NCBI GenBank assembly: GCA_026414725.1
Contig: JAOAIL010000011.1
Coordinates: 1 to 46,636 of the forward strand
DNA from: a bacterium
GTDB taxonomy: Bacteria; Ratteibacteria; UBA8468; B48-G9; JAFGKM01
DNA: 46,636 nt
Direction: 5' to 3'
Shown here: positions 21,150 through 41,708 of the stretch, piece after piece
Layout of the letters: every line of letters begins with the position of its first letter
Numbering within the stretch: position 1 is the stretch's first letter
Position numbers and translations under genes: made by a program
Notes under the pieces: generated by a model
Database searches by the model: none
Told to the model about the DNA's origin: nothing
Seen by the model: the letters and a program-made list of their open reading frames with translations, nothing else

Positions 21150-21582
21150 AAAAGGTATGACGCTTATAGAGATTCTTGTTGTAATTGCTATTATTTCTGT
21201 GATTGCTGCATTTTGTCTTCCTGTCTATCGTAAAGCAAAAGTAAGGGCTCTTATAGTAAAGACACAGGCAATAATAAACTCTCTTGAAGCAGCGCTCTCT
21301 ATGTATAGCACTGACTTTGGTGATTATCCACATTATACTGGAGAAGGAACAACCTTTCTTGTATTAATTCTACAGGGTCCAGTAGATAGCCCTTTCTGGA
21401 AAGGTCCTTATATGAGATTTAAGAAAGAAGACCTTGACAGCGCAGGAAACATACTTGATTCATGGAAGATGCCCCTTTATTATAGATACCCGCAGGATGA
21501 ATATCAAAATATTCCCTATCTTATCTTTTCTGCTGGTCCGGATAGAAAATATGACACCCCTGATGACATAGGCAACTGGTGA
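21124..21582 (+). CDS. GspG-type pseudopilin
   Basis: A 152-residue type II secretion or type IV pilus-like major pseudopilin. The prepilin peptidase site is Gly11-Met12 in YKKGMTLIEILVV, with Glu at position +5 of the mature protein and an adjacent hydrophobic helix. The C-terminal part ends SAGPDRKYDTPDDIGNW, the aspartate-rich calcium-binding pattern of GspG. The first ATG lies 26 bases inside cysS and has no clear ribosome site, so it may depend on translational coupling. No other secretion gene is in the window. Confidence 0.85.
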   Translation: MEQDGKGYKKGMTLIEILVVIAIISVIAAFCLPVYRKAKVRALIVKTQAIINSLEAALSMYSTDFGDYPHYTGEGTTFLVLILQGPVDSPFWKGPYMRFKKEDLDSAGNILDSWKMPLYYRYPQDEYQNIPYLIFSAGPDRKYDTPDDIGNW

Positions 21583-21639
21583 TTATTTCAAAGGAGCAAT
21601 TTTATTTATGCCACATTACTTATGGATTATTAACTTTAT

Positions 21640-21968
21640 CAATATCTAAGTCCTATATAGAGTGAAACAACAATTGTCAGCATACCCGGTTATTATAAGA
21701 AGCGTTATCTTTTCTTTTAAAAACCATGCAAAAATAAGTATAAAGATAGGGTTAGCATTCATAAGAATACTGGAGGATGTTGCTGTGGTATATTTAAGGG
21801 ATGTAAAATCAGAATATTTAATAAGAATATACAGGCGGACATACATCTCAGAAAGACAAGGATGACAGGGTTGACATTCTCATCACTTAATATAAATCTG
21901 CCAACAACAAAAACAGTTCCCCAGCTGATAGAGGCAAACAGAGTACAGATATATCCTTTTGTTTTCAT
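21640..21968 (-). pseudogene. Decayed EamA/DMT-type transporter, first half only
   Basis: On the minus strand a start at 21968 gives KTKGYICTLFASISWGTVFVVGRF in one frame, the typical N-terminus of an EamA-domain drug/metabolite transporter. The match then moves to a second frame (DFTSLKYTTATSSSILMNANP and IFILIFAWFLKEKITLL) and to a third (GMLTIVVSLYIGLRY) before a stop. So at least two frameshifts, and probably a small deletion between the first two parts, have broken it, and the second EamA domain is missing. It fills most of the gap between the pseudopilin gene and dnaJ. No mobile element is seen beside it. Confidence 0.75.
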
Positions 21969-35360: not shown

Positions 35361-36194
35361 CTATCTCGTTATCAGTAATACCTTTGTCACTGCAGTATAA
35401 GTTTTCTTTTTAAAAGTAAAAACAATTTCATCTTCCTCTGAAACTGTCTCCCTATCGAAAAAATTATCAATACTTGTAAATATGAGACCGAAATCTCTTT
35501 TTAACTCCCAACTCCTCTCTGGATTATGTTCATCCAGTAATATTACAAATAATCTGTTATCTGCTCCAAATCTTTGAGCCCCTTGATTTTCATACATCCA
35601 AATTGCTAAATCTCTCGGGTTGTTCACCGCATCAACAGGATTATACCTTCGAGGTAAATAAGTTACTTTCAAATCAAAAGGCTGTCCATCAAAAAAAACA
35701 TCAATTCCTTTTATATTTTTTATAGTAGGCACCACTCTCGGATGTGTACTTATATGTTCCTCTATTAAAACAGTTGTCCAGTGGTTAAACCATGTACAAA
35801 GTACATAGTTCATAACTTCCCTATTAAGATTCTCTTCAACATTTCTTAATAAATCATCATACTTTACAATTTTTCTTACATATTCTGTCTGTATTTTTTG
35901 GTCCAATTGTCCTTGGACTACTCCCCAAGAAAAATCTTGGACCTTCATTAATTCTTTTTTTAAATCTTCATCTCTAATAATTGCCCTCCTTTTCTGAATT
36001 TTTTCGGCATATCTTTGCTTAATAAATTCATCTATTTCTTTTTCGGTTATCTCATTCTCTAATAAATACTTAATAATTTTTGTTGCTGAACTATCATTAG
36101 AGATATTTAAATTTAAAGTAAATTTTTTCAAATAAGATAAGGGAATACACCTTAATTTCAGATTTAAAACCTCTTTTGGACTAATCAATGGCAT
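35361..36194 (-). CDS. Probable type II restriction endonuclease
   Basis: A 277-residue protein with no close family that I recognise. A PD-(D/E)xK-like core is visible: KGIDVFFDGQPFDLKVTYLPR has Asp, then DLK about ten residues later. The N-terminal 100 residues are helical and charged. It lies after a DNA methyltransferase gene in the same orientation, the typical arrangement of a type II pair. AGGAGATAGATAT supports the start. Recognition site unknown. Confidence 0.7.
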   Translation of the reverse strand: MPLISPKEVLNLKLRCIPLSYLKKFTLNLNISNDSSATKIIKYLLENEITEKEIDEFIKQRYAEKIQKRRAIIRDEDLKKELMKVQDFSWGVVQGQLDQKIQTEYVRKIVKYDDLLRNVEENLNREVMNYVLCTWFNHWTTVLIEEHISTHPRVVPTIKNIKGIDVFFDGQPFDLKVTYLPRRYNPVDAVNNPRDLAIWMYENQGAQRFGADNRLFVILLDEHNPERSWELKRDFGLIFTSIDNFFDRETVSEEDEIVFTFKKKTYTAVTKVLLITR

Positions 36195-36256: not shown

Positions 36257-36418
36257 CTAAGGTACCTTGTAAGCATAGTCAGGATACGCTGGCAAAGTAT
36301 GTCTTCCATACTCATCCCATTTGGCTAAAATATACCGCCATACCTTTCTTTCATCGATATACTCAATATCAATCACTTCGCCAATATCTCCACAAACATC
36401 TTTTACAATATCACAAAT
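36257..36418 (-). CDS. Small open frame between methyltransferase and endonuclease, start uncertain
   Basis: On the minus strand a frame of 67 codons, bounded by a TAA near 36462 and a TAG at 36257-36259, translates to a protein-like sequence with YIDERKVWRYILAKWDEYG and a Tyr/Pro-rich end. There is no ATG. An ATT at 36416-36418 lies seven bases after GAGGAG, and a GTG at 36374-36376 (39 aa) is the alternative. It could be a real small gene with a rare start, or a former C-terminal extension of the methyltransferase put out of frame. I do not recognise it. Confidence 0.3.
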   Translation of the reverse strand: MCDIVKDVCGDIGEVIDIEYIDERKVWRYILAKWDEYGRHTLPAYPDYAYKVP

Positions 36419-37574
36419 TTTTATCTCCTCTATCCTGTCCTCTCCTCTTTTTAAACAGCATTATATACTCATGCTTAAAAACATAGAAACCACCAACTAG
36501 TGCCCTGTATCTCCAGAGTTCCTTTTGATTCCTCTTTCCTCTTGTCTCTTCAAAATTTTTAACAATGATACTTTTCAACAGATATCCTCTTTTCAAAACC
36601 TCATTCATACAGTAAAATCCCAATGGTATCCATTCTCCCTTTGAATATTTATCTCCTATAACTAAAACAAAATACCTATCTTTTTCTAAATAAGGAGTTA
36701 TATTATCTACTACTTCTCCAAACATTTCTAAAAAATCCTTTGTGTTTTTCGCATTTGAAAGGTCTCTTGCATCTTTAGAAAATTTAATAATGTCATGGTA
36801 AGGTGGGTGCATAATAAGAAGTTGTACCTGCTCTATTTTATACTTCATTAACACTGCTTTCATATCAATGTTTCTACTATCCCCTGTCATTATATCTGAT
36901 ATAACCTTATCTTTATTCTGTTCCTTATCAATCAATTCGTTTGCTTTTTCTACTACATCTGGATTTAATTCTATTCCTATGCCATTTCTCCCCAATCTTC
37001 TGCATTCAATTAAAGTTGTTCCACTACCAGCAAATGCATCCAGTACCCATTCTCCTTTCTTTGTATACCTTAATATCATTTGGTGTGGAATCTGAGGAAT
37101 AAAATTACCCCAGTACCAGCCTAAATGTGCCCCAGTTGTATCTCTTCTATCCAGTATCCATAAACTATCTGTAATAATCTCCTCATATTCTTTCCACCTT
37201 AAAAGATTTATGTCATTAATCTTGCTTGTCTTAACCTTTTGAATTCCTTCTTCCAACCTTTTAATGTAATATCTTGCTCTTTCAAGTGTTCGTGTATCCA
37301 AAATCTGGTCTAATTCAGAAGCAACAACATCTCTTCTTAAAGAGATTGTATCTCCATTTGTATCAATATTTAATATGCCTTCTTCATCTTTTTTATAATT
37401 TGTTATAACATTTTTTAAGTAAACCACTTGTCTTTTTATGGAATTCAAGTCATTTAGGGCATATATATTTGATAAAATCTCTTTAATTTTTTCTTTATTT
37501 AATATCACCGCTCCATAAGTCATAGGAGTATCCTCTAAATTTTCAAACAAATGGTCTGTTTTTATTATCCTCAT
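36411..37574 (-). CDS. DNA methyltransferase (N6-adenine or N4-cytosine)
   Basis: A 387-residue amino-methyltransferase. AdoMet motif I is GEWVLDAFAGSGTTLIECRR with motif II acidic end GIELNPD; the catalytic motif IV is LLIMHPPYHDI, followed by a helical region and a final beta segment EYIMLFKK. Motif I precedes motif IV. The N-terminal 150 residues are probably accessory or target recognition. It lies 16 bases after nrdG and precedes the endonuclease. HPPY instead of S/DPPY leaves the base target open. Confidence 0.9.
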   Translation of the reverse strand: MRIIKTDHLFENLEDTPMTYGAVILNKEKIKEILSNIYALNDLNSIKRQVVYLKNVITNYKKDEEGILNIDTNGDTISLRRDVVASELDQILDTRTLERARYYIKRLEEGIQKVKTSKINDINLLRWKEYEEIITDSLWILDRRDTTGAHLGWYWGNFIPQIPHQMILRYTKKGEWVLDAFAGSGTTLIECRRLGRNGIGIELNPDVVEKANELIDKEQNKDKVISDIMTGDSRNIDMKAVLMKYKIEQVQLLIMHPPYHDIIKFSKDARDLSNAKNTKDFLEMFGEVVDNITPYLEKDRYFVLVIGDKYSKGEWIPLGFYCMNEVLKRGYLLKSIIVKNFEETRGKRNQKELWRYRALVGGFYVFKHEYIMLFKKRRGQDRGDKNL

Positions 37575-37590
37575 CCCTACATGTACCTCC

Positions 37591-38280
37591 TTATCTCACT
37601 TCACATCTTTTTACATACTTTAGCATAATTCTCCTTATCTCTTCAAACTCTGTATCTGAATATGTGTGATAAGAAAGAGCAACAGGGTCAACTGCCTTTG
37701 AAGGTCTGAAATGCTGCAGATAGAAAAGTTCTGCCCCTTGTATAAGTTTTCCTATGCCTTCAAAATCATCTATATCAAGCATCTCCTTTACCACTGTTGT
37801 TCTGAACTCATAGGGTACCTTTCCCTTCATAATCAAAAAAATGCTATCCTTTATTTTTCCCATATCCACTTCTACACCTGCAATCTTACTGTACTTTTCA
37901 GGTGGTCCTTTCACATCCATTGCTATATAATCCACAATGTTTTCTTTAAATATCTTCTCTAATACGTCTGGGAAACTCCCGTTGGTATCTATCTTTATTG
38001 CATATCCCATCTCTTTCAGTATTTTGATAAAAGGGATGAGGTCATTATCAGAACATGGTTCTCCCCCTGTGATAACAACCCCTTCAAGATACTTTCTCCT
38101 TTTTATAAGAAAATCCATCACTTCTGAAGTGGAAAGAGGAGGAACAAACTTCTCAGGAAGGACTAATTCTGGATTGTGGCAGTAAGGACATCTGAAATTA
38201 CATCCCTGAATAAATATTATACAACTGATACATCCCGGAAATTCAATAAGGGATGTTTTATGAAGTGCTCCTATCTTCAT
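37591..38280 (-). CDS. nrdG: Anaerobic ribonucleotide reductase activating protein
   Basis: A radical SAM protein of 229 aa that forms the glycyl radical on NrdD. The CxxxCxxC is Cys27, Cys31, Cys34 in GCNFRCPYCHNPEL, and VVITGGEPCSD is the GGE motif. The N-terminus KIGALHKTSLIEFPG is typical of this family. Its ATG abuts the nrdD stop, so the pair is one unit, oxygen-sensitive and used in anaerobic growth. Confidence 0.94.
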   Translation of the reverse strand: MKIGALHKTSLIEFPGCISCIIFIQGCNFRCPYCHNPELVLPEKFVPPLSTSEVMDFLIKRRKYLEGVVITGGEPCSDNDLIPFIKILKEMGYAIKIDTNGSFPDVLEKIFKENIVDYIAMDVKGPPEKYSKIAGVEVDMGKIKDSIFLIMKGKVPYEFRTTVVKEMLDIDDFEGIGKLIQGAELFYLQHFRPSKAVDPVALSYHTYSDTEFEEIRRIMLKYVKRCEVR

Positions 38281-40371: not shown

Positions 40372-40384
40372 CAGGGACCTCCCT

Positions 40385-40399
40385 TTGTAATAATTACAA
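40385..40399. promoter_or_regulatory. Palindromic operator candidate in the nrdD leader
   Basis: TTGTAATAATTACAA is a perfect 15-base palindrome, between the predicted nrdD transcription start and the ribosome site. A related half-site TGTAATAA is directly adjacent. It does not match the NrdR box as I know it. Confidence 0.45.
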
Positions 40400-40414
40400 C
40401 TTTTTACTTATTAC

Positions 40415-40443
40415 ATTTTACCCTGTTAAAACTTTTCTGTCAA
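40415..40443 (-). promoter_or_regulatory. Promoter for nrdDG
   Basis: On the minus strand TTGACA (40438-40443) and TAAAAT (40415-40420) are 17 bases apart, about 44 bases upstream of the start codon. The -10 is embedded in the left arm of the inverted repeat. Confidence 0.8.
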
Positions 40444-40511
40444 ATTTTTTCTCCAGAGGTATTATATAATAAATATCAAAAAATAAAAAATAGTTTTCAA
40501 CAGGGTAAAAT
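40415..40511. repeat. 97-base segment with 19-base imperfect terminal inverted repeats
   Basis: ATTTTACCCTGTTAAAACT (40415-40433) is repeated in reverse complement at 40492-40511 with one extra base; 13 bases at the ends match exactly. The inner part contains a palindrome, TATTATATAATA. It covers the nrdD promoter. It could be a pair of operators, an RNA stem-loop or a miniature element; no target duplication is evident. Confidence 0.6.
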
Positions 40512-40532: not shown

Positions 40533-41708
40533 TCAGTTCTTTGTTTTTGCAAATGCCTTTATCAGAACCGCAAGGATTATATGAAGGAAAGCAACTACAA
40601 GGAAGGGTATACGAAGCCCTGTTAATTTGGCAAGCATCCCACCTGAAAAAGTTCCTAAAGCAAATCCAATCATACTGATGGAGGCAGACATCCCGTAAGC
40701 CCTACCTATATATTCCCTGTCTATGCTGTTATAGATAATAGCATTGGCAGCCGGTATCATCCCTGCAACACCCAGACCAAAAAGTATCCTGACAAAGAAC
40801 AATATGGGGATACTGAAAGCAAAAAAGTGTCCTGCTGATGATAGAGATGCCACGAGTGCACAAAATATTAATATCTTTTTCTGTCCGAGACGGTCTCCTG
40901 TGTGTCCGAACAGGGTAGCAGAGAAAGCACCCGCTAATGCAGAAACCGCAAGGATTGTACCTGTTATACTATTCAATTTCTCCTGTGATGAAAGAATCTC
41001 TTTTACAATCAGCGGGAAGGAAGGGCTTACCATAGAATTACTGAACTGAACCCCAAAGAGAATTGCTACAGCCATAAGAAATCCCTTTGTAGTAAGTATC
41101 CTTAAAAATCCATAGGTAGGGTTTCTCTTTTCATAATCAGGTGGAATGAAGACCTCTTTTGCTCCCATATATACAAGAAGTCCACCTAAAAATATTATCA
41201 GTGCCCCTGCCCTGAATGTAGCACGATACCCGTAAAGGTCTGCAAGGACTCCTCCAAAGAGAGGACCTAATGTAGTCCCGATATATACAGCGGTTTGCAT
41301 CATACCGAGAGCAAAACCACTTCTTTCCTCTGGAGTGACACTTGCGACAAGCGCAACACTTGAAGAGATTGTTCCTGTTAAAATACCCTGCAGAAGCCGA
41401 CAGGCAACAAGTTGACCCACATTCTGTACAACAGACATCAAAAGTAAAACAACAGTTCCACCAAACATTGACCTGCACACCATTGCCTTTCTGCCATACC
41501 TGTCAGCAAGAACTCCCCAGAATGGAGCAAATAATGCAAAGGTCATACCACTTGAACCCATAACAACACCTGCCCAGAATGCCTGCTGTCCTTTACTGAA
41601 AGTACCGAGTTCAGATATAAAGAATGGTAGGAATGGAAGGACAAACGAAAATCCAACCATTGAGAGTATCTGCGCAGTAAATGTAGATATAAATGTTTTC
41701 TTCCACAT
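40533..41708 (-). CDS. MFS transporter (DHA1-like)
   Basis: A 391-residue protein with about twelve hydrophobic helices and the motif A loop GVLADRYGRKAMV between helices 2 and 3; a related GHTGDRLGQKK appears in the second half. Probably an efflux or sugar permease; the substrate cannot be told. It is divergent from the glycerol-1-phosphate dehydrogenase gene. No Shine-Dalgarno site is seen and a TATAAT ends 10 bases before the ATG, so the leader is at most a few bases. Confidence 0.88.
   Translation of the reverse strand: MWKKTFISTFTAQILSMVGFSFVLPFLPFFISELGTFSKGQQAFWAGVVMGSSGMTFALFAPFWGVLADRYGRKAMVCRSMFGGTVVLLLMSVVQNVGQLVACRLLQGILTGTISSSVALVASVTPEERSGFALGMMQTAVYIGTTLGPLFGGVLADLYGYRATFRAGALIIFLGGLLVYMGAKEVFIPPDYEKRNPTYGFLRILTTKGFLMAVAILFGVQFSNSMVSPSFPLIVKEILSSQEKLNSITGTILAVSALAGAFSATLFGHTGDRLGQKKILIFCALVASLSSAGHFFAFSIPILFFVRILFGLGVAGMIPAANAIIYNSIDREYIGRAYGMSASISMIGFALGTFSGGMLAKLTGLRIPFLVVAFLHIILAVLIKAFAKTKN

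Follow-up and report, generated by a model that had tools for sequence, protein, structure and literature searches.

A probable PerR-type operator at the promoter of the sole ribonucleotide reductase found in a genus of Ratteibacteria

A perfect 15-base palindrome precedes nrdD, and it is very probably bound by the regulator PerR. It may be taken with high confidence, on comparative sequence evidence, as the operator of a metal- and peroxide-sensing repression of nrdDG. In this genus, which belongs to a poorly known anaerobic lineage, PerR appears to have the role that NrdR plays in sister genera, and it would directly regulate the sole ribonucleotide reductase.

Organization of the nrdD promoter

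In the window (the whole stretch of 46,636 nucleotides that was analysed), nrdD is carried by the minus strand, from 40371 to 38281. It encodes a class III (anaerobic) ribonucleoside-triphosphate reductase of 696 amino acids (TIGR02487, 583 bits; PF13597, 683 bits) and is directly followed by nrdG (37591–38280, minus strand), which encodes an NrdG2-type activating enzyme (TIGR02495, 196 bits). Upstream of nrdD is an AT-rich intergenic region of 161 bp, bounded by the end of a transporter gene at 40533. Read along the minus strand, this region contains a TTGACA-17-TAAAAT promoter (40443 to 40415; −35 at 40438–40443, −10 at 40415–40420) matching the consensus at 11 of 12 positions, then 15 nucleotides, the palindrome TTGTAATTATTACAA (40399 to 40385), the ribosome binding site GGGAGG (40378–40383) and the ATG. 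The −35 hexamer is kept in genera g1 and g5 and in one further family. The preliminary description, whose coordinates are correct, had reported a perfect 15-base palindrome just past the start site; it is indeed found at 40385–40399, where it reads TTGTAATAATTACAA.

This palindrome is a 7-1-7 inverted repeat with the predicted nrdD start site on one side and the ribosome binding site on the other. Its perfect symmetry, its conservation and its occurrence at perR and peroxiredoxin genes of relatives make it the candidate main operator. A second, weaker PerR-like box, ATGTAATAAGTAAAA (40402–40416, minus strand), matches TTRTAATNATTAYAA at 11 of 14 positions; it abuts the −10, and its start lies 17 bp upstream of that of the main box. 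Farther upstream, about 40–50 nucleotides from the −10, a GTTATATAAT-like block (TTATATAAT in the window, 40461–40470, minus strand) is conserved in genomes G001, G003, G004, G008 and G011, and is shared by two genera. This block has no good −35; it may correspond to a second, upstream −10 or promoter, or to another upstream element.

On the other side of the operon, a gene for an N6/N4 DNA methylase (36411–37574) directly follows nrdG on the same strand. A gene encoding a 277-amino-acid protein with no Pfam match (35361–36194) also has the orientation of nrdG, and the two are perhaps a restriction-modification pair.

Conservation of the palindrome

A perfect 15-nucleotide palindrome of any sequence was obtained in 5.3% of shuffles and is thus not unusual for DNA with this much A and T. 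Conservation, and not symmetry, must therefore decide. The exact sequence was never obtained in 5000 shuffles, and the genome search proposed in the preliminary description found TTGTAATNATTACAA only once in the 1.52-Mb genome. Within the genus, nrdD is present in four of the five genomes, the fifth assembly being 54% complete. The congener records are Ca. Ratteibacteria STE_142 (L105), Omnitrophota QZM4_2.bins.330 (L106) and 'Elusimicrobia' AS06rmzACSIP_197 (L107). All four nrdD-bearing genomes keep the palindrome; it is perfect in three of them (the window's genome, G001 and G003) and carries one change in G004, where it reads TTGTAATTATTACAG. In the three congeners, the TTGACA, an A/T-rich −10 and the palindrome are retained while the spacer and the arms of a larger inverted repeat (see below) diverge.

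The exact palindrome is also found in a second genus (G008), preceded by a TTGACG-17-TACAAT promoter and at 105 nucleotides from the ATG, versus about 30 in the genus of the window. Thus, when conservation upstream of other nrd genes is considered, the palindrome is kept at nrdD in the genus and in G008, and the inverted repeat is not. In G011, the box has decayed to TTGTAGGTGTTACAA and no Fur-family match was found in this genome; the coincidence is suggestive, although it is a single case. It may be added that G001 (L003; G001:C98, 3535–3721) has an insertion of some 188 bp that separates the upstream TATAAT block from the promoter. TTGACA occurs on either edge of this insertion, which leaves the −35 intact.

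The Fur-family regulator and its operon

A single Fur-family gene was found in the window's genome, which is 96% complete; it lies on contig 14 of G000 (complement of 21334–21762) and encodes 143 amino acids. Its product scores 84.4 bits with PF01475 (cut-off 23.1), and its best PDB match is Bacillus subtilis PerR (2fe3, E = 1.5e-24). All five regulatory metal ligands are present, H34, D82, H88, H90 and D101 corresponding to H37, D85, H91, H93 and D104 of B. subtilis PerR, and the structural Cys4 site is complete (C93, C96, C130 and C133). N58 and D101, the equivalents of N61 and D104, are invariant across all aligned PerR orthologues; in B. subtilis, these two residues are diagnostic of PerR, N61 for PerR-box discrimination and D104 for H2O2 sensitivity (PMC8638851). 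The best NCBIfam family is PerR NF052545, with 101 bits for an equivalog cut-off of 180; the name of this model (TransRegPerRClab) suggests that it is tuned to one clade.

The perR operon also encodes an Ogg-type 8-oxoguanine glycosylase, rubredoxin, an FprA-type flavo-diiron protein, ferritin and superoxide reductase. The glycosylase gene (L062, 2763–3392) opens the operon, and its start codon comes directly after the −10/PerR box, with almost no leader.

PerR-type boxes at other promoters

Repeats with the 7-1-7 organization of the TTATAATNATTATAA type are found at the promoter of nrdD, with TTGTAATTATTACAA, and at that of the perR operon, with GTATAATNATTATAT. At the perR operon, GTATAATGATTATAT overlaps the −10, and the box is kept in four of four genomes of the genus. 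In relatives, the box is found at perR or at a peroxide-defence gene. In genus g4, TTGTAATTATTACAA itself precedes perR in G014, and the box carries one change in G012 and G007; in G008, TTGTAATCATTACAA precedes a peroxiredoxin gene.

Over the whole genome, six perfect TRTAATNATTAYA sites occur, three of them in promoters (nrdD, the perR operon and the intergenic region between rex and a gene for a Lon-like ATPase) and three inside genes. Among those examined, sites with one or two mismatches are mostly intragenic, so that a long regulon cannot be read from the pattern alone. At the gene of the Lon-like ATPase, which is divergent from rex, a TATAATAATTATA box covers the −10 (L208, 1521; G000:C10:18120). 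It is kept in one congener (L209, 1532; G001:C11:2631), and this gene is possibly a further PerR target.

The position of the second box was studied by scanning 82 offsets outside the main box itself. An offset of 17 bp was the best of all in five nrdD promoters, four perR promoters of g1 and three of g4. In the perR sets, the companion box partly overlaps a −10-like TATAAT, and the match is inflated there. As no homology relates the promoters of nrdD to those of perR, the common spacing suggests that one regulator acts on both. The weaker box at nrdD would then be a second PerR site, a view for which the spacing is suggestive.

Alternative readings of the palindrome and of the inverted repeat

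Another member of the Fur family, either Fur or Zur, might read the palindrome, in which case nrdD would answer to iron or zinc and not to peroxide. The 7-1-7 geometry is common to Fur, Zur and PerR boxes, TTGTAATNATTACAA contains the GTAAT of Zur boxes, and two congeners, G001 and G003, carry a second, Fur-like protein. This possibility is nevertheless unlikely: the only Fur-family gene of the window's genome is PerR-like, the Fur paralogue of G001 (P0008) has an R at the specificity position (VYRTL), and among the sites examined the box precedes perR or peroxiredoxin genes, not metal uptake genes. As for Rex, which senses NADH/NAD+, its operators are 18 bp long (TTGTTAA-N4-TTAACAA or TTGTGAA-N4-TTCACAA). 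The TTGT and ACAA ends of the palindrome match those of Rex sites and a rex-like gene is present in the genome (C10). However, the palindrome has 15 bp, three less than this consensus, with an AATNATT core, and promoters of perR and peroxiredoxin genes carry the box too, which leaves a Rex operator very improbable. The palindrome also belongs to the predicted transcript, one or two bases before the Shine-Dalgarno sequence, and could be imagined to act as an RNA hairpin in the nrdD leader. Yet the leader does not fold better than shuffled sequences (z = −0.87), the palindrome forms no stem of its own in the predicted fold, and a long stretch separates it from the ribosome binding site in G008. 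The equivalent box of perR promoters lies over the −10 and hence is not a leader element there. No RNA family of Rfam matched either. A riboswitch or hairpin was rejected for want of a fold signal and of an Rfam family, and such a role has hardly any likelihood. Binding of PerR thus remains the preferred reading of the palindrome.

The larger inverted repeat is a different matter. The preliminary description had pointed to imperfect repeats of 19 bases, 58 bases apart, with the −10 box inside the left arm, and both observations hold. The left arm, ATTTTACCCTGTT-AAAACT (40415–40433, plus strand), overlaps the −10 (TAAAAT, 40420–40415 on the minus strand) and the spacer, and is not conserved; the right arm, whose reverse complement is ATTTTACCCTGTTGAAAACT, lies at 40492–40511 (plus strand). 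Their identity is 16/17 without gaps, or 19/20 with one base gapped, and in 300 dinucleotide shuffles of the 161-bp region this repeat was never equalled; it is therefore non-random in the window. Such terminal repeats could be those of a miniature transposable element of 97 bp that brought a promoter, as also envisaged in the preliminary description. This idea was rejected and is extremely unlikely. A genome search with the arm gave matches with zero or one mismatch at the two known places only, the next ones having at least two mismatches, and no second copy of the 97-bp unit was found in the genome or in 30 relatives. Moreover, the −35 and −10 are conserved in relatives devoid of the arms, and the flanks of the right arm are common to G001, which shows an 8-bp flip and not an insertion at this place. 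This micro-inversion (ACCCTGTT in the window, AGCAGGGT in G001, between the same TTTT and GAAAA flanks) creates the inverted repeat of the window; in G001, 188 bp are also inserted between the two halves. Neither G003 nor G004 has the AACAGGG arms. The repeat as an operator or a looping pair was ruled out on account of this absence, the flip and the insertion. Since two congeners lack the repeat, the remaining one has it rearranged and its arm has no other close copy in the genome, it cannot be counted as a mobile element or as a conserved operator. Most likely, it is a chance or lineage-specific local arrangement, functionless and with no role in nrdD control. Thus, the suggestion of a new redox control of the class III reductase can be retained for the palindrome, with PerR as the named regulator in place of NrdR, Fnr or Rex, but not for the inverted repeat.

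PerR in place of NrdR

The absence of an NrdR box at the nrdD promoter, as first described, is borne out by the best match in this region, which has 6 mismatches over 16 positions. NrdR boxes typically occur in tandem with a spacing of 31–32 bp (PMC2892513), and no two tandem boxes about 31–32 bp apart were found at the nrdD promoter of the window. The NrdR gene (TIGR00244) was found in none of the five genomes of the genus; among all 31 genomes searched, 15 gave a match over the cut-off. With neither gene nor box, NrdR was rejected as the regulator of nrdD here. Furthermore, no class I or class II reductase (PF02867) was found in the window's genome or in the genus, so that nrdD is the only ribonucleotide reductase found in the genome. 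In genus g4 (G007, G010, G014 and G015), nrdR directly precedes nrdD, NrdR-box-like repeats about 31–32 bp apart are located upstream and there is no PerR box. In family f3 (G017 and G019), nrdD has a TTGACA-17-GAAAAT promoter with neither NrdR nor a PerR-type box. Loss of NrdR therefore does not require a takeover by PerR.

About 75 nrdD upstream regions were examined for boxes, and many of them contain NrdR-like boxes. Outside the genus, only two records in this set, both from Ca. Stahlbacteria (L129 and L130), have at most one mismatch to the PerR box. In these, TTATAATGATTACAT and TTAAAATGATTACAA are 17 bp apart at a TTGACA promoter of nrdD, and about 94 nucleotides after nrdD, on the same strand, comes a gene for a PerR with the same diagnostic residues; in L130, perR is followed by rubrerythrin and FprA genes. 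The corresponding stretches (L129, 4001–6610; L130, 4001–9962) thus carry on one strand, behind tandem PerR-like boxes, nrdD, perR and, in the longer arrangement, rubrerythrin, a flavin reductase-like gene and FprA. In G033, a third Stahlbacteria genome, a similar promoter directly precedes perR. The genomes behind L129 and L130 (G031 and G032) still have NrdR, which makes the link between PerR and nrdD independent of NrdR loss. On balance, we lean toward a scenario in which PerR replaced NrdR at the only reductase, with tandem operators 17 bp apart tying dNTP supply to peroxide and iron status, the same link in Ca. Stahlbacteria being either independent or inherited.

Comparison with known systems

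The PerR boxes and regulons of anaerobes, such as rbr1-perR-rbo of Clostridioides difficile (PMC8546684), and B. subtilis PerR share with the present case a 7-1-7 promoter repeat, canonical PerR residues, a perR operon with superoxide reductase, rubredoxin and a flavoprotein, and a box before perR itself. Here, in contrast, the target is nrdD, the sole reductase, the half-site at nrdD is TTGTAAT and not TTATAAT, and tandem boxes are 17 bp apart; the lineage is a candidate one, known in this analysis from metagenome assemblies only. As in NrdR control of nrd operons, a repressor would act at the nrdD promoter, and g4 uses NrdR for nrdR-nrdD, but the gene and the boxes are absent from this genus (PMC2892513). 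Fur control of Salmonella nrdHIEF also places a repressor of the Fur superfamily on a ribonucleotide reductase operon; it concerns a class Ib enzyme, iron and a Fur box, and not a class III enzyme with a PerR-type regulator (PMC2892513). Among the open-access papers searched, none was found to describe a PerR box at nrdD. The only link between PerR and nrdD found there is a perR microarray table for group A Streptococcus, taken from Grifantini et al. 2011, which lists nrdD with fold changes of −2.9 and −2.5 (PMC4487405). This entry resembles our case by the connection in expression; it differs by its negative values, and no box is claimed along with it.

A model for nrdDG control and its meaning

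From the observed sequences, their conservation, the gene content and the residues of the regulator, we infer a model for PerR binding, the direction of control, the inducing signal and the benefit. PerR loaded with Fe(II) or Mn(II) would bind just past the promoter, at the palindrome and probably also at the weaker box that precedes it by 17 bp, and would repress nrdDG. The position of the palindrome between start site and ribosome binding site fits repression. Peroxide, or metal loss, would inactivate PerR, and nrdDG would be induced together with the perR operon. The likely sense of this control would be that the sole dNTP source, destroyed by the oxidant, is replaced while DNA undergoes repair. 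Some points speak against PerR. The classic half-site of Bacillus PerR is TTATAAT; the box at nrdD differs from it by a G at position 3, which makes it look like a Zur half-site, and the perR promoter of the window's own genome has TATAAT and not TGTAAT in its box. In addition, unless repression were partial, it is hard to see why a strict anaerobe should repress an enzyme that it cannot do without.

The class III reductase is a glycyl-radical enzyme that oxygen destroys, and it is here the only detected route to dNTPs. If the model is true, its control by a peroxide sensor, jointly with 8-oxoguanine repair and the removal of oxygen and superoxide, would help to explain how strict anaerobes maintain DNA synthesis after exposure to oxidants. 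It would also provide a clear case in which the widespread NrdR has been replaced by another regulator.
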